Origin: Bacteroidota bacterium
GTDB taxonomy: Bacteria > Bacteroidota > Bacteroidia > NS11-12g > UBA955
Direction of reading: 5' to 3'
Assembly: GCA_030834125.1 (NCBI GenBank)
Contig: JAURFW010000014.1
Location: forward strand, 1-50,488
DNA length: 50,488 nucleotides
In this document: piece after piece, positions 19,442 to 29,951 of the stretch
Position numbering within the stretch: position 1 is the first letter of the stretch
Layout: each line of letters starts with the position of its first letter
Program-made: the position numbers and the translations under genes
The notes under the pieces: generated by a model
The model's input: only the letters and a program-made list of their open reading frames with translations
The model's database searches: none
What the model was told of the DNA's origin: nothing

Positions 19442-22400
19442 ATGTTGAATATAAAGAAATACCTTGTTGTTTTAATGCTTATTACATCAGGGTTTGCTGT
19501 TGCTCAAACTACATATTACGTAGATGGAGTAAATGGTGATGATGTAAATAACAGTGGTGCAAGTGGTTCACCATTTAAAACCATTGGAAAGGCAATGAAC
19601 TCTGTTGCTTCTGGTGATATTATTGAAGTAGAGGGCGGTGCTTATACAGAATCTGTAGATGTTACTGAAAATGTAACGATAAGCGCAGTTACTGCTGGAT
19701 TAACAGTAGATAAGTTGAGGCTTTCAAGCGGAAAAAACTTAACTATTGGGTCTACATCTGAAGTTATTACAGTAAAAGATAGTTTGTTACTAAATTATGG
19801 TTTAGTTAATGTTAATTCATACAACCGTCTACATACATCGGCTACGGCAGAAGTGGCCGGTGGTAATGACACTAGTTTTATTGTCAATGGATATACCATT
19901 CATCACGTTGGAAACACTTCCAAAACCTACACCTGGCATATTGGGCATACAACAGGTGATTATCGCCCTATAACTTTAAGTAGTTTTAGTACATCTAAAA
20001 CCACAGATCAATATTTTTATGCGCGGTGTATAAACGGAGGCCCCTCGTTTAGTGTATCGCTGCCAACCAATACTAAAAATATTTCTAGTGTCAATCATTG
20101 GGAAGTAGGCGCTCAGGAAGCTGCCGGCGTAACAAACGCTTATACATTAACTTTTGATTACGATTCAGCTACCAATGATGATGGAGTATGGGATGCTCCC
20201 AATCTTCAGCTTTTAAATACTGACGGTCTCGCTGCTTGGGTTTTAAAAACTCAAGGTGGAACAAATGCAAGAAAGGGTTCAATTTCAGCAACTGCGACCA
20301 ATACACTTGGTTATTTTATTTTAGGAAATAAAAAAGGTGGAGCTACATTTTTAGGAGGGGCCAACAACTTAGGTAGCGCCGATCCATTTGTGAGTTTTGA
20401 ATATAATGCTGCTGGTCTGTGCGAAGGCGATACCATATTCTTTAATAATCTCACGACGAATCGCTCAGGGGCTACGTTTACATGGATTTTTGGTGACGAG
20501 TCAGAAACAAATCCAAAATATAAGGGGATTACTTATCCTAATGCTTCGGCTGAACACCCATATCACATTTATAATAAGGCAGGTAGCTATACGGTGAGTC
20601 TCCAAGTGCAAAATGCGACCAACAATCCAGATGTGGGGTACATGGCATTTACCATTGGTATTTTACCAAGGCTTCCAGGTTATAAATCTGTTGAAGTATA
20701 CAGATATCCATATAATGGCCTTGATACTTTTGACGATCTAACCATTTGTGATGGTGAGAGATTTTGGGCCGTGGATAATTATGACGCTACATTTCAATGG
20801 AATCCTAATGGTGATGTAGTTACAAAAACCGTTTATGTTATTCAGGGATTAACACCGGAACCAACATTGCCGGTCATGAATCCTATACCAAGTAATGATA
20901 CATTTTTTAATACAATTAATGGACCAGGAAATTATAAAGTTGTTGTTACTCGCACAACTAATAAAGGCTGTGTAGCTGAAGAAACTCAAGATTTAATCAT
21001 TTATGCTCGTCCTGCGCCAGTTATTGATGCATTGGATAAATGTGAAACTCCCCCCAACACTACCTTATTTGTAACAAATAGTACAACTGATCCTTCACCA
21101 ACGAATACTATTAAACAATGGTCATGGGAATATGAGGGTACTTTTGTATTGAATGAGAAAGTAAACAAAAGTCATATTTTTCAAAATGCACACAAAGGAA
21201 TAAATCAAGTTAAATTGATAGTAGAAACAAAAGTAGGTTGTATAGATTCTATTACTAAAGACGTGGAAATATTCCCTAAACCCAAAATAGATATGGACCT
21301 AGATTATTTCTGTGAAGGCCAAACCTTAAGTGCAGATGCTTCTAGTTCAAGTATTACTGGTTCAAGCAATATTGATATGTATATCTGGAATTTTGATTTT
21401 GGTAAACCAAATCCACAATATGACTCTAATGCGGTTACAAATTATCAATATCCAGGACCTGGTTTATACAGAATTCAGTTAAGGTTGGTATCAGATAAAA
21501 TGTGTTTGAGTGATTCTGTTCAACAGATAAGAATTCATCCCAAACCAACTCCTGACTTTGATGTAAAAGAGGTATGTTTCGGAGACTCAACCGAATTGCG
21601 AAGACTGATTCAAACATACCCAAATGATGATAGTATGACGTATTATTGGTATTTAGATTACCAATTTATAAAGGATGATACAGCATTCAAATATTTATTG
21701 CCAAATCCGGGGTCATATCAATTGAAAATGGAAGGTATTTCTGATGCTGGTTGTACAGATTCTATCATCAAAACCATTAAATCTTATTATGTTCCTAATG
21801 CATCATTTATTTTAGACACAATGGTGACAGGAAATGATTCAATTCAATGTTTTAATGGTAATAATTTTGTGTTCGATTATGATTTGGGAATAGATCCATA
21901 CGATACACTCGATATTTCAAAATGGGTTTGGGGGGATACTATGATTGAATCTCCAATAGTTGGTAATAATCATTCTTACACAACATTAGATACCTTTGAA
22001 ATATTACTATTTGTGCAAAATATTAATGGTTGCGCTGATAGTTCTTCATTAACCGTTATAACGGTGCCATCTCCCACAGCAGGATTTGATTGGAACGGAT
22101 TATGTGTTCCAGACACTGTTAAATTCTTTGATACAAGTTCAGTTTCTGTAAATCCAATTACAAGTAGATTCTGGGATTTTGGAAATGGAGAAGCAGATAC
22201 GAACATTACAACTACTCAAACATTCTACTCCAATTCAGGACCATATTCTGTAAAATATACAATTGAAAGCGATAATGGCTGTCGCGATTCAATAACTAAA
22301 TCAATTGATACGCTTATAGACATTCCGGTTGCAAATTGGCAATTAATTAATGGAAGTATGCCACTATGTAAAGGTGATAGTGCAACATTCCAAATTAACG

Positions 22401-23047
22401 GAGGCGACTCTGCAGTATGGTTAATTGATTTGGATACAAATAGATCTAAAGCTTTCTCAGTTACCGGAGTGTATAAATTTGAAGTGATTAACGGAGGACG
22501 TTGTAAATCAACTGATAGCGTGCAAGTATTTGCCTATACAGCTGCTGATATTAAAGCATACAGCGATACGGTCATTTACAGAGGACGTAGAGCAGAATTT
22601 AGATTAGTAAAGGCTTCGTCAAACATAAAATGGTCTCCCTCAGAATTTCTAGAAGATAGTACAAGTACTTATGTTACCACGAAACAACTTATTGATTCAA
22701 TGAGGTTCTATGTTACTGCATTGGATTCAAATGGTTGTGAGGATATGGATTCGGTAACTGTATTAATTATTGATCCGCCATTAGTTAAAATTCCGAATAT
22801 AATTACACCAAATGGAGATAATGAAAATCAAACATGGAACCTAATAGATATTCCGGATTTATTCCTATACGACATAGTGATTTCTGATCGTCAAGGAAGA
22901 CGAGTATATGAAAGTACGGATTATAAAAATGATTGGGCAGCTAGAGATATGAATGGATTAGAGTTACCAAATGGTGTATATTTCTACTACATGAAAAACA
23001 GACAAACTAACGAAATTTACAGAGGTTACATTCAAGTGATAAGATAA
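19442..23047 (+). CDS. Large secreted protein: beta-helix-like N-terminus, PKD domains, T9SS type B sorting domain
   Basis: The 1201-residue product has a signal peptide at 1-21 (ending FAVAQ). Residues about 22-130 resemble a DUF1565/right-handed beta-helix start (YYVDGVNGDDVNNSG, GSPFKTIGKAMNSV). Several PKD-like domains follow at about 310-1000, recognisable by strings such as FTWIFGDESETNP, WNFDFG and FWDFGNGEAD and by repeated Cys-Asp-Ser ladders. The last 85 residues form a gliding-motility-associated C-terminal domain (CHU_C type, T9SS type B): NIITPNGDNENQTWNL and GVYFYYMK. It should be exported by T9SS and may be a surface adhesin like SprB-family proteins. A PorP/SprF gene follows after one base, which is the known partner arrangement for type B cargos. 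No catalytic motif is evident. Confidence 0.88.
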   Translation: MLNIKKYLVVLMLITSGFAVAQTTYYVDGVNGDDVNNSGASGSPFKTIGKAMNSVASGDIIEVEGGAYTESVDVTENVTISAVTAGLTVDKLRLSSGKNLTIGSTSEVITVKDSLLLNYGLVNVNSYNRLHTSATAEVAGGNDTSFIVNGYTIHHVGNTSKTYTWHIGHTTGDYRPITLSSFSTSKTTDQYFYARCINGGPSFSVSLPTNTKNISSVNHWEVGAQEAAGVTNAYTLTFDYDSATNDDGVWDAPNLQLLNTDGLAAWVLKTQGGTNARKGSISATATNTLGYFILGNKKGGATFLGGANNLGSADPFVSFEYNAAGLCEGDTIFFNNLTTNRSGATFTWIFGDESETNPKYKGITYPNASAEHPYHIYNKAGSYTVSLQVQNATNNPDVGYMAFTIGILPRLPGYKSVEVYRYPYNGLDTFDDLTICDGERFWAVDNYDATFQWNPNGDVVTKTVYVIQGLTPEPTLPVMNPIPSNDTFFNTINGPGNYKVVVTRTTNKGCVAEETQDLIIYARPAPVIDALDKCETPPNTTLFVTNSTTDPSPTNTIKQWSWEYEGTFVLNEKVNKSHIFQNAHKGINQVKLIVETKVGCIDSITKDVEIFPKPKIDMDLDYFCEGQTLSADASSSSITGSSNIDMYIWNFDFGKPNPQYDSNAVTNYQYPGPGLYRIQLRLVSDKMCLSDSVQQIRIHPKPTPDFDVKEVCFGDSTELRRLIQTYPNDDSMTYYWYLDYQFIKDDTAFKYLLPNPGSYQLKMEGISDAGCTDSIIKTIKSYYVPNASFILDTMVTGNDSIQCFNGNNFVFDYDLGIDPYDTLDISKWVWGDTMIESPIVGNNHSYTTLDTFEILLFVQNINGCADSSSLTVITVPSPTAGFDWNGLCVPDTVKFFDTSSVSVNPITSRFWDFGNGEADTNITTTQTFYSNSGPYSVKYTIESDNGCRDSITKSIDTLIDIPVANWQLINGSMPLCKGDSATFQINGGDSAVWLIDLDTNRSKAFSVTGVYKFEVINGGRCKSTDSVQVFAYTAADIKAYSDTVIYRGRRAEFRLVKASSNIKWSPSEFLEDSTSTYVTTKQLIDSMRFYVTALDSNGCEDMDSVTVLIIDPPLVKIPNIITPNGDNENQTWNLIDIPDLFLYDIVISDRQGRRVYESTDYKNDWAARDMNGLELPNGVYFYYMKNRQTNEIYRGYIQVIR

Positions 23048-23048
23048 A

Positions 23049-24374
23049 ATGAGAAAAAGTATTTTTACCCTTGCAATAAGTGGATTAACAATTTTTGGAT
23101 CCACAATGGCTCAAATGGGAGCACGCATAGATCAATATTATCTTGATCGCTCAGTATTAATTCCTGCCGCAATTGGCGAAAGTGAGGAAGGTTATGCTAC
23201 AATAATATATAATAAACTATTCACGGATATTCCAGGTTCGCCGCAGCATACTGTTCTTAATATGGCGATGCCTTTGCCACAGAAAAATACATCTTTTGGG
23301 CTCTTTTATATGAAAGAGAATATTGCGTTCTCTGAAATGCATAATGCGTATGCAACATATGATTACAGAATTCAATTAGGTGCAGATATCAATTTGAATC
23401 TTGCTGTAAGTGCCGGAGTGTTATCGCAGAATTTTGATGCTACAAAAGCAGTGTATTACGATGAGAATGATGACAAGATAACAGCATTAATGTTTAGCCC
23501 ACCTGTTGTGAGAGCCGATCTTAGAGCGTCGTTATATTTAAGTTCGGAGAAGTTTTACGGAGGATTTTCTGTGACTCGATTGCCACGTCCGCATTTTGAT
23601 TATACTTACTATAATTATGCAGCGGGTTATGACCTGCAAACCCAAGCAAATGCACTTTTAGGTTACAACTCAGTTATTGACGATAACTTTACCCTTAAAC
23701 CAAGTTTCCATTTTAATATGTATAACTGGGATTACATGTATTTCCAAGGTAACGTAAGTATAGATTTTAAAGATGTTATGTGGGTAGGTTTCGGAATGAA
23801 TAATTTATTTCAAGCTGGTGTAAATGCAGGTTTCAAACCTCAGGATGATATCTTAGTAGGCTACAGTTATACGGTGCCTAATGGTGAGCAACGCGGTCTT
23901 TTGGGACCAATGCATGAATTTACAGCCAAAATTGGATTCTCTGCTCTTGGCGGTGGTTCAAGAAACAAAGACGGTGACGGAGATGGTATAGGTTCAGATT
24001 TTGATGGTGATGGTAGCGCTATGATGGAAAATGAGAGAACGTACAAAGAAGCTATCGTAAAATCTTATGAGGATATGGAGAACTTTGGACTTGGGCATGA
24101 TAGTTCAGGAATTAAACTTCCTCCAATTCCTAAGTTGAATCCTGAGCTTGGACATTATTTAGTTTCTGGCCTACACTCGAGTGAAGAGAAAGCAAATGAA
24201 CAAATTAAGCAGCTTTATATGAAGGATGTAATAGCTTTTAAATTCTATGATATGAGAAATAAAAGTTATTACGTATTCGTGAAACGCTACAATACTGAAA
24301 AAGAGGCAAATAAAGGGGAATTCTATTATGAGGGTAGCGTACCACGTGTTTGGGTACGTGAAATACATAAATAA
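23049..24374 (+). CDS. PorP/SprF-family T9SS outer membrane protein with acidic linker and SPOR-like C-terminus
   Basis: This is a 441-residue protein. A signal peptide (1-21, ending STMAQ) precedes a barrel of about 280 residues that matches the PorP/SprF pattern: early RIDQYYLDRSVLIPAA, then paired strands describing a small outer membrane barrel ending near FTAKIGFSALGG. Residues about 305-322 form an Asp/Gly linker (DGDGDGIGSDFDGDGS) like calcium-binding thrombospondin type 3 repeats. Residues about 361-441 read like a SPOR domain (HYLVSGLHSSEEKANEQIKQ, YYVFVKRYNTEKEANKG). PorP/SprF proteins hold type B cargos at the surface, and this one lies one base after such a cargo gene. The C-terminal extension is beyond the usual family length of about 300. 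The SPOR call is by pattern only. Confidence 0.82.
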   Translation: MRKSIFTLAISGLTIFGSTMAQMGARIDQYYLDRSVLIPAAIGESEEGYATIIYNKLFTDIPGSPQHTVLNMAMPLPQKNTSFGLFYMKENIAFSEMHNAYATYDYRIQLGADINLNLAVSAGVLSQNFDATKAVYYDENDDKITALMFSPPVVRADLRASLYLSSEKFYGGFSVTRLPRPHFDYTYYNYAAGYDLQTQANALLGYNSVIDDNFTLKPSFHFNMYNWDYMYFQGNVSIDFKDVMWVGFGMNNLFQAGVNAGFKPQDDILVGYSYTVPNGEQRGLLGPMHEFTAKIGFSALGGGSRNKDGDGDGIGSDFDGDGSAMMENERTYKEAIVKSYEDMENFGLGHDSSGIKLPPIPKLNPELGHYLVSGLHSSEEKANEQIKQLYMKDVIAFKFYDMRNKSYYVFVKRYNTEKEANKGEFYYEGSVPRVWVREIHK

Positions 24375-24389
24375 GAATAACACCAAATA

Positions 24390-25055
24390 TTAATTCTCAC
24401 CTCGAAAGGCATAAGAAATGAGATTTGCTCCCATTTCGAGTGCCTTTCTTCGTTTTTCGGAAGAATCATTATATACTTCAGGGTCTTCCCATCCATTCCC
24501 TAGATCACATTCATAATCGTAAAAACAAATTAACTTACCTTCCCAAAATAGACCGAAACCCATTGGCGGTTTAGCATCATGTTCATGAACTTTAATTAGA
24601 CCATTTGGGAATTTGAACTTCTTATTATAAATAGCATGGTCTAAAGGAACTAACTGAAATATTAATTCTGGAAAGACTTTCTTCATTTCCCTCCTTATAT
24701 AATGGTCTAGACCGTAATTATCGCATATATGAAGGAATCCTCCTCCAATTAAATATTCTCTTAAGTTTAAAGCCTCAGATTCACTAAATACTATATTACC
24801 ATGCCCTGTTAAAAATAAAAATGGGTAATAAAAGATGTCTGAAGATCCTATATCGACAATGTCTTCTTCAGAATCGATATTCGTATTAATATGTTGATTA
24901 CAAAAAATGGTTAGATTTTTTAATGCTGTTCTGCTGCTATACCAGTCACCCCCTCCAGAGTATTTTACCCTGCCAATTCTAATCGATGATTGACAGAAAG
25001 TTGAGCTTGTAGCAATGAATAATATAAAAAATAGGATGTTTCTTTTTAACTGCAC
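24390..25055 (-). CDS. DUF4159 secreted protein
   Basis: The product has 221 residues from a GTG at 25055. That start sits one base after the uppP stop and directly precedes a signal peptide (QLKRNILFFILFIATSSTFC). An in-frame TTG at 25091 would extend it into uppP. The mature protein fits DUF4159: the opening RVKYSGGGDWYSSRTALKNL, the middle motif LTGHGNIVFSESEALNLREY, then YLIGGGFLHICDNYG, a glutamine-amidotransferase-like fold. The family is found in Bacteroidota and others without a proven reaction. It closes the ftsX-DUF3098-uppP operon. Its 3' end is convergent with the PorP/SprF gene, only 15 bases away. Confidence 0.82.
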   Translation of the reverse strand: MQLKRNILFFILFIATSSTFCQSSIRIGRVKYSGGGDWYSSRTALKNLTIFCNQHINTNIDSEEDIVDIGSSDIFYYPFLFLTGHGNIVFSESEALNLREYLIGGGFLHICDNYGLDHYIRREMKKVFPELIFQLVPLDHAIYNKKFKFPNGLIKVHEHDAKPPMGFGLFWEGKLICFYDYECDLGNGWEDPEVYNDSSEKRRKALEMGANLISYAFRGEN

Positions 25056-27770: not shown

Positions 27771-27818
27771 GATGCCACATATTAATGGGTTTAAATGTCT
27801 AAACAAATAAGGATTTTG

Positions 27819-27826
27819 TATATTTG
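27819..27826 (+). promoter_or_regulatory. Bacteroidota -7 box that decides the start of the type B T9SS cargo gene
   Basis: TATATTTG lies one base before ATG 27828 and four bases before ATG 27831. An upstream in-frame ATG at 27795 would place the box inside the gene, so a start at 27828 or 27831 is favoured. Confidence 0.4.
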
Positions 27827-27827
27827 T

Positions 27828-29951
27828 ATGATGCTGAAAAGTCGGGGTCTTTTTATTTTCTTTTTTGTTAGCGCATTTGTTTTGAAAGCAAGTGAGCCAA
27901 CTACTGCTCCGTCTAACCCCAAAGCAGGAACCATTACTTGTACATCTGCGGTAATAAGTTGGACGAATGGAGATGGTGGTTGGAGATTGGCCATAGTTAA
28001 AGAAGGCTCTGCTGTTGATGATTTGCCTGTAGATGGTACAAATTATACGGCCTTTTCGGATTTTACAGCTGGTGAGGAAATTGGATCTGGTAATTACGTC
28101 AGTTACAATAATATTACCACCAACTTTGAACTAAAAAACTTAAAACCCAATACCACATATTATGTGAGTATTTTTGAACATGACGGAGCTTCAAGCCCTG
28201 ATTATCTTACTAGTACTTATGCATCTTTTTCCTTTACAACATATAATATCGAACTGGATTTTGATTTTGCAATTGATGATAGTTGTAGTAAAACAAACAC
28301 TGTAACATTTACGAACAAATCAAAAACTAATTTTTCGGGAATAACCTATACATGGGTATTGAAAGATGGTAACACAAAACAGGGAAAAGATATCACCCAT
28401 ACCTACGATGAAGGCGGGAATTATCAAGTTATGCTAGTTGCAGCGCCAAGTTATGGATGTAAAGATAATTTTATTAATTACGATCCAGTAAAAATTATTC
28501 CTAGGCCTATCAGTAGGCCAATTGAAAAAAATAATCAACTTGCCCAGTGTTTAGAGGGTAATTTATTCCAATTTGCTGATAACACTTCTCTTATAAATCT
28601 TCCTAAAATAGCGTATACCAGAACTTGGTATTGGACTCCATCTGATTCATCTACACTGCCTAAACCTGTCAAAACTTTTCCAAGTCCTGGTACTTATAAA
28701 ATAGGTTATCGAGCAGAGACATATTTTGATAATGTTAGAACTGGTTGTGATGATACGGCATCTCTTTATATAAGAGTGATTGATAACCCTTCTAGTGGTA
28801 TTGATATAAACGATTCAATTCAATGCTTCAGTACCAATGCATTTATTTTTGACAATGTGTTTCCTGGATTGACGAAGTTTTCTTGGGATTTAGGAGATGG
28901 AACCACTTCAACATTAAAACAAATTACTCATACTTATTCTGCCATTGGAATTTATCCCATAATTCACGAAGCGGAGAGTCCTGAAGGTTGTAAATCAAAG
29001 GATACTGTTTTTATTGAGGTTAAGCCCAATGTAAATCCGTCATTTACGGGTTTGCCGGGAACAGCATGTGAAGGCGGAAATTTGGCCTTATTGAATCCTG
29101 CTAATCCCAATGGGACATTCTCAAGTACATCAGGAACCTTTTCTGGTTTTTTATATTCTCCAGGGACTTTTGGGACACACAAAGTTAAATACGTAGTAAA
29201 TGATGCTTTTTGTAAAGACTCTTCAGAACAAACTATTTTAATCTACGAAAAACCTAAATTTTCATTAGGACGAGATACAATCATTTGCGACAATGATAAC
29301 TTTCAACTTTCTGTTTCGGGTGCTGGTACTTTAACATGGGAGGATGGAAGTGATGACAATCCAAGACCAATAGATCAGCCAGGTGTCTATTGGGCAGAAA
29401 TGGATAATTTGGGTTGTGTTGGAAGAGATACAATAAATGTTGGGTACGAGCTTACTCCATATGCAGATTTACCAGATGATACCTTGATATGTAAAGGGCA
29501 AATTTTACAATTAAAACAATATTGGCCTAATGCAATCATCACCTGGTCTAACGGAAGTAATGATACTGTCATTTATGTAACTGAACCAGGGTTTTATTCA
29601 GTCGCAGTTTCAAACTTTTGCGGAACTGCCGGAGATGTTATGGAGGTAATTGTTTCTGACGGTTATTGCGATATTTTCATGCCAAATGCCTTTACTCCAA
29701 ATGGAGATGGGCGTAATGAGTATTTTGAAATTTTAGGTAGAGATATTGAACCTGTTCTATTGCAAATTTTTAATAGATGGGGTGAGTTAATATTCGATAG
29801 TAAGCGCGTTGGTGATTATAAATGGTACGGCGATGCAAATGGTGAGCTTTGTCAAGAAGGACTTTATCCATTTATTTACAGATATCAACAAAAAGTAGGT
29901 GACAGATACCGCAGAAAAACGGTTAAAGGAGCAGTGTTATTACTGCGTTAG
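27828..29951 (+). CDS. Secreted protein with fibronectin III-like and PKD domains and T9SS type B sorting domain
   Basis: The product has 707 residues from ATG 27828; ATG 27795 (718 residues) is possible but puts charged residues ahead of the signal peptide MMLKSRGLFIFFFVSAFVLK. Residues about 24-140 form a fibronectin type III-like domain (TCTSAVISWTNGDGGWRLA, LKPNTTYYVSIFEHDG). PKD-like domains follow (TYTWVLKDGNTKQGKDITHT; FSWDLGDGTTSTLKQITHTY). Two short repeats of the form LPDDTLICKGQILQL precede the C-terminal CHU_C/T9SS type B domain (MPNAFTPNGDGRNEYFEI, IFNRWGELIFDS). It should reach the cell surface by T9SS. Unlike the other type B cargo here, no PorP/SprF gene lies beside it. Binding partner and function are unknown. 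Confidence 0.87.
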   Translation: MMLKSRGLFIFFFVSAFVLKASEPTTAPSNPKAGTITCTSAVISWTNGDGGWRLAIVKEGSAVDDLPVDGTNYTAFSDFTAGEEIGSGNYVSYNNITTNFELKNLKPNTTYYVSIFEHDGASSPDYLTSTYASFSFTTYNIELDFDFAIDDSCSKTNTVTFTNKSKTNFSGITYTWVLKDGNTKQGKDITHTYDEGGNYQVMLVAAPSYGCKDNFINYDPVKIIPRPISRPIEKNNQLAQCLEGNLFQFADNTSLINLPKIAYTRTWYWTPSDSSTLPKPVKTFPSPGTYKIGYRAETYFDNVRTGCDDTASLYIRVIDNPSSGIDINDSIQCFSTNAFIFDNVFPGLTKFSWDLGDGTTSTLKQITHTYSAIGIYPIIHEAESPEGCKSKDTVFIEVKPNVNPSFTGLPGTACEGGNLALLNPANPNGTFSSTSGTFSGFLYSPGTFGTHKVKYVVNDAFCKDSSEQTILIYEKPKFSLGRDTIICDNDNFQLSVSGAGTLTWEDGSDDNPRPIDQPGVYWAEMDNLGCVGRDTINVGYELTPYADLPDDTLICKGQILQLKQYWPNAIITWSNGSNDTVIYVTEPGFYSVAVSNFCGTAGDVMEVIVSDGYCDIFMPNAFTPNGDGRNEYFEILGRDIEPVLLQIFNRWGELIFDSKRVGDYKWYGDANGELCQEGLYPFIYRYQQKVGDRYRRKTVKGAVLLLR

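Follow-up and report, generated by a model that had tools for sequence, protein, structure and literature searches.

Type B cargos of the type IX secretion system (T9SS) meet one of two fates: they are held in place on the cell surface or glide along it. A type B cargo leaves the cell via the translocon, on its cognate PorP/SprF carrier, and then stays bound to that carrier (PMC9143113, PMC12618676, PMC12635249), and a recent proposal assigns wall-anchored cargos to PorE and gliding ones to a cysteine-containing carrier tail. The locus described here lies in a window of 50,488 nucleotides (contig JAURFW010000014.1 of assembly GCA_030834125.1, a freshwater Bacteroidota bacterium) and encodes a type B cargo next to a carrier with an unusual C-terminal extension. 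Better-known bacteria employ a separate anchor protein; here, and recurrently across Bacteroidia, a carrier-anchor fusion probably links surface protein and wall in one piece.

The cargo gene (19442..23047; this and all further features are on the forward strand unless stated otherwise) encodes 1201 amino acids with a signal peptide, a DUF1565-like N-terminus, PKD domains, and a type B C-terminal sorting domain (CTD). The CTD (residues 1115-1201, 22784..23044) was recognized above the curated cut-offs by both CHU_C (Pfam, 2.5e-17) and TIGR04131 (NCBIfam, 2e-10), and four PKD_4 stretches were found in the protein (Pfam, 1.5e-30). The original prediction of a type B PKD/beta-helix protein was hence right about the PKD domains and the CTD. 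The beta-helix did not hold up, as its sole basis is a DUF1565 match, the start of a right-handed beta-helix family, at residues 30-72 (19529..19657; Pfam 6.1e-5). Its role as an adhesin is guessed from the PKD repeats. The cargo is orthologous over its full length in four of six same-genus loci, the remaining two being cut by contig ends.

As predicted, the open reading frame of the PorP/SprF carrier (23049..24374) begins after a single intervening base. A gene on the opposite strand at 24390 converges on it, so that no further operon member follows the PorP gene. Both the extension of the carrier and the operon order were retained in approximately 28 orthologous loci, even where identity falls to about 20-40%, which argues against a chance arrangement. 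In the host genome, sprA, the gene of the T9SS translocon, is accompanied by 23 type B sorting domains and seven PorP proteins. A second type B cargo of 718 amino acids with PKD domains and CHU_C is encoded at 27795-29951 (+) with no adjoining PorP; between its CTD and that of the 1201-residue cargo, identity is only 33%. It may use a different shuttle or share the neighboring carrier.

The carrier comprises 441 amino acids. Its PorP_SprF barrel (residues 21-293, 23109..23927; Pfam 6e-31, TIGR03519 1e-35) ends at about residue 295, and the protein scores above the curated cut-offs of PF11751 (108.4 versus 22.3 bits) and TIGR03519 (123.6 versus 90.55 bits). The barrel is followed by an acidic, glycine-rich linker (residues 296-360, 23934..24128) that includes DGDGDGIGSDFDGDGS and by the C-terminal domain (residues 361-441, 24129..24371). 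When the C-termini of the seven PorP proteins of the host genome were inspected, this was the only one with a long folded extension. The extension would face the periplasm, as published for the SprF C-tail. The linker had been described as calcium-type, a description that the data do not support: no TSP3-type match was obtained with Pfam, and the DxDxDG repeat is absent from the linkers of the orthologs, which differ in length and sequence, the shortest being a few acidic residues and the longest a stretch of Gly/Asp/Asn/Ser about 50 residues long. Similarly, the suggested rigidity of the mount is doubtful, because about 65 variable residues rich in Gly, Ser and acidic side chains part the barrel from the terminal domain. 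Their composition suggests a flexible spacer or tether instead.

The C-terminal domain had been predicted to be SPOR-like. By itself, the extension gave nothing convincing in Pfam, NCBIfam, or PHROGs, and the single 441-residue sequence did not match PF05036 (SPOR), but many of its orthologs did. The same C-terminal domain was found in orthologs from the genus, the family, and the order; 14 of 21 orthologous C-termini matched Pfam SPOR at E ≤1 (best 1.1e-11), and five full-length relatives (L027, L030, L031, L033, and L036) exceeded its gathering score. A profile made exclusively from 13 family members was then compared by hhalign with SPOR domains of non-PorP proteins and aligned over residues 361-439, nearly the whole of the predicted segment, with 98.5% probability (E 2.4e-15). 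The non-PorP set had itself been retrieved by a profile containing order-level relatives; the six members checked individually all pass the Pfam SPOR cut-off. Forty column-shuffled profiles peaked at 56.7% (score 27 versus 79), and OmpA (0.3%) and CTD profiles, used as controls, both remained below 1%. Searched against all PDB sequences, the combined profile of 31 domains (A6) returned CwlC (2.4e-7), FtsN (9.6e-4), and DamX (0.05) as its top three matches.

Structure prediction of the protein alone was weak. With only seven usable sequences, AlphaFold2 modeled the C-terminus at a pLDDT of 40 and the entire protein at 35; the order of elements predicted in the low-confidence pLDDT 40 model, b-a-b-b-a, is that of SPOR, whose RNP-like fold is b-a-b-b-a-b. 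A Foldseek search with the C-terminus model gave no significant match, the DamX SPOR domain being third with an E-value of 0.8. Judged by the profile comparisons, the extension is a divergent SPOR domain. In the host genome, Pfam SPOR matched no protein at all, and the family model matched the 441-residue PorP solely. Close relatives of the host encode a separate SPOR protein of about 150 amino acids.

Fusions of this kind are not a local peculiarity. Within the order, SPOR and PorP matches above the cut-offs share open frames in families f1 and f2, and the best SPOR relatives from the class outside the order were again PorP fusions. In the class Bacteroidia, operons of a cargo and a PorP-SPOR are spread over at least 14 families (f1, f2, f5, f7, f10, f13, f15, f16, f20, f28, f29, f32, f41, and f56). 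A gene with a type B CTD lies immediately upstream in 32 of 33 fused loci, in support of the noted pairing of type B cargo and PorP. Several other SPOR proteins of 640-815 aa were checked as candidates for PorE with a SPOR domain: those of family f34 proved to be such, two turned out to be further PorP-SPORs (in G163 and G108), and the others were rejected. In G163, a second PorP of 570 amino acids is encoded directly downstream of a PorP-SPOR gene (L109:1213-2922); its C-terminal extension yields only a weak CarboxypepD_reg match.

A survey covered 80 type B CTD loci from 119 genomes of the class, taken as the best-scoring rows and picked regardless of PorP type. An adjacent PorP was present in 61 of these 80 best-scoring loci; six of the 61 carried SPOR, two carried OmpA, and the rest were short or otherwise extended. 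With SPOR on one of seven PorPs in the host genome and six of 61 in the class sample, the extension is not common to ordinary family members. Among the short PorPs of the class sample, five adjoin an OmpA-bearing gene and three a SPOR-bearing gene. Most have neither module nearby, so that a wall anchor is not obligatory. In a tree of the barrels, most extended PorPs fell into one broad, poorly supported group (34 SPOR, 3 OmpA, and 7 short), and about eight label changes were counted overall; this pattern points to an old fusion with gains, losses, or swaps. Three PorPs of 417-449 amino acids in family f12 (L195, L205, and L224) adjoin type B cargos and bear a charged, apparently helical C-terminal extension; the closely related L163 (400 aa) groups with them.

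PorP-OmpA architectures are listed in protein-family databases, and we found OmpA at the place of SPOR on the carrier itself in three loci (L037, Pfam 1.7e-22; L165; and L182). The reverse exchange was seen on PorE. Sixteen PorE loci were scanned, with OmpA in 16, PD40 in 13, and CarboxypepD_reg in seven. In family f34, however, the operon consists of a cargo, a short PorP, and a PorE in which SPOR replaces OmpA, a TPR-PD40-CarboxypepD_reg protein with a C-terminal SPOR domain. This order was found in five genomes (L159, L178, L204, L225, and L227), and the N-terminal part of these proteins is homologous to PorE at 99.7%. Two unrelated wall-binding modules that swap at two positions of one complex are what would be expected if their job is to hold the wall. 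The interchange thus speaks for a static tether to peptidoglycan, a counterpart of the PorE-PorP-cargo complex.

The distribution of the anchors in cis and in trans is consistent with replacement of PorE but does not prove it. In the order sample, a gene for PorE with OmpA lies directly downstream in 15 of 16 short-PorP type B operons. PorE was absent from all 33 fused loci, 20 of which belong to the order and 13 to other parts of the class; an OmpA match downstream of one of them (L103) turned out to belong to a small lipoprotein-like protein. The host genome has PorP and PorE together in operons at C89 and C28, whereas no OmpA domain was found on the contig of the cargo/PorP pair. Cis/trans exclusivity gave p = 3e-12 on raw counts, which are not independent of descent, because the loci fall into few orthologous groups, and p of about 1 on independent pairs, which are too few; in the class sample alone it was not significant. 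A general rule that a fused SPOR replaces PorE was rejected, since it is not descent-independent and most short PorPs across the class have no PorE nearby. It stands only as a tendency. The 441-residue PorP contains none of the PorE domains (TPR, beta-propeller, CarboxypepD_reg, and OmpA) and is not a PorE, although it can act in the same manner.

We consider it likely that the pair is a static surface-display unit whose carrier itself tethers the cargo to the wall. The SprA translocon would export the cargo, and the dedicated PorP barrel would collect it via the type B CTD and then keep hold of it at the outer membrane. From the periplasmic C-terminus of the barrel, the flexible linker would reach to the SPOR domain on the peptidoglycan. 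The adhesin would thus be held to the wall by its carrier, a cis equivalent of the separate PorE in the complex of PorE, PorP, and type B cargo. One basis of this model is what is described above, namely the homologies, the gene order of the operon, the wide occurrence of the fusion, and the SPOR/OmpA swapping; the other is provided by published relatives, in which PorP anchors cargo and PorE bridges to peptidoglycan. The model further supposes that the SPOR domain binds peptidoglycan and that the cargo is an immobile adhesin.

In RlpA, Q270 and three arginines contact denuded glycan, most other contacts being made by the main chain; the glycan strands to which known SPOR domains bind have lost their stem peptides and are enriched at the septum (PMC6895207). 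The 441-residue PorP has Val372 at the position of Q270, and all 31 Bacteroidota sequences compared have Val, Ile, or Met there, including SPOR domains that pass Pfam. Its arginine-patch positions are occupied by Tyr408 and Phe410; Tyr at position 408 is found in 22 of 22 PorP-SPORs versus two of nine other SPORs. The equivalent of RlpA F274 is His376 in the family of this carrier and Phe or Tyr in the others compared. Trp435 in the last strand is invariant in all 31 sequences, and the order members compared have a basic residue at 437. The two positions resemble W416/K418 of DamX (PMC6895207), a correspondence that is based on the motif and not on structure. Peptidoglycan binding by this SPOR domain is therefore inferred, and with the canonical Gln and Arg contacts replaced it is doubtful whether the domain is specific for denuded glycan. 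The predicted tie between outer-membrane carrier and wall stands as a probable cell-wall link that lacks those canonical contacts. These residues also lower the odds that SPOR acts as an address label, which would steer carrier and cargo towards denuded glycan at the division septum and thereby to new poles, and so position the adhesin at a specific site instead of just holding it. The septal enrichment of known SPOR ligands and the DamX-like Trp435 and basic 437 speak for such a role. The lost glutamine and arginine, however, and the presence of OmpA, which binds the stem peptide and has no septal preference, at the same place in relatives make it unlikely. A variant in which a T9SS-specific SPOR subtype (Tyr408, invariant Trp435, and no Gln) reads a particular state of the peptidoglycan and so sites adhesins at the septum and new poles is equally improbable in our view.

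The loss of the canonical glycan contacts and the PorP-specific Tyr408 could also be read as signs that the SPOR fold was kept for binding a protein, for instance a component of the T9SS ring or track, and helps to load or eject cargo and does not attach to the wall. Contact of PorP with PorK has been reported (cited in PMC9143113), but that OmpA and SPOR stand in for each other on PorP as well as on PorE is hard to reconcile with a specific protein partner, and we rate this reading slightly lower still. A gliding system with a mobile adhesin, as in SprB-SprF, suggested by the type B cargo and its adjoining SprF-family protein, is very improbable. SprF is bonded to GldK via a Cys-X-Cys motif in its short C-tail (PMC12635249). 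The 441-residue carrier contains no cysteine, its orthologs have no Cys pair in the tail, and it was rejected as an SprF-type gliding carrier; attachment to the gliding track in the manner of SprF is accordingly unlikely. Mobile substrates of F. johnsoniae, moreover, are not encoded in an operon with a PorE gene (PMC12618676), so that a module that binds the wall is more in keeping with the static class.

The PorP-SPOR family indicates that an anchoring module can be fused onto the carrier and that SPOR and OmpA can replace each other, on the carrier as on PorE. A sequence rule for the fate of an adhesin may follow: what comes after the barrel, or which gene comes after the carrier gene. Such a rule could predict the fate of many uncharacterized adhesins, and the anchoring model is open to a simple tail-swap test. 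In the open-licence literature we found nothing relevant on PorP-SPOR or on SPOR together with T9SS, and an earlier mention may exist elsewhere.

The closest known systems are the bridge of PorE, PorP, and PG1035 to peptidoglycan in Porphyromonas gingivalis (PMC9143113) and the PorE-linked type B operons of F. johnsoniae, exemplified by Fjoh_3952-3951-3950 with a static cargo, in which the PorP/SprF protein is needed for secretion and anchoring of its partner cargo (PMC12618676). Static type B cargos are proposed to be held via PorE and the wall (PMC9143113, PMC12618676). These systems likewise combine a type B cargo, a dedicated PorP, and a peptidoglycan-binding module encoded or bound alongside. 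They differ in that OmpA resides on a separate multidomain lipoprotein, PorE, whereas here SPOR is fused to PorP in a locus without PorE. The SprB-SprF pair shares the type B cargo and the adjoining carrier, but SprF is attached to GldK, on the moving track, by a bond from its short Cys-X-Cys tail, and the cysteine-free carrier described here has a SPOR domain in its stead. The SPOR domains of CwlC, FtsN, and DamX are homologous to that of PorP-SPOR by profile, and a periplasmic location is expected. Compared with those of FtsN, DamX, RlpA, and CwlC, the domain of PorP-SPOR lacks the Gln and Arg patch conserved in the solved SPOR domains and sits on an outer-membrane barrel, while sharing the invariant Trp of the last strand with other Bacteroidota SPORs.
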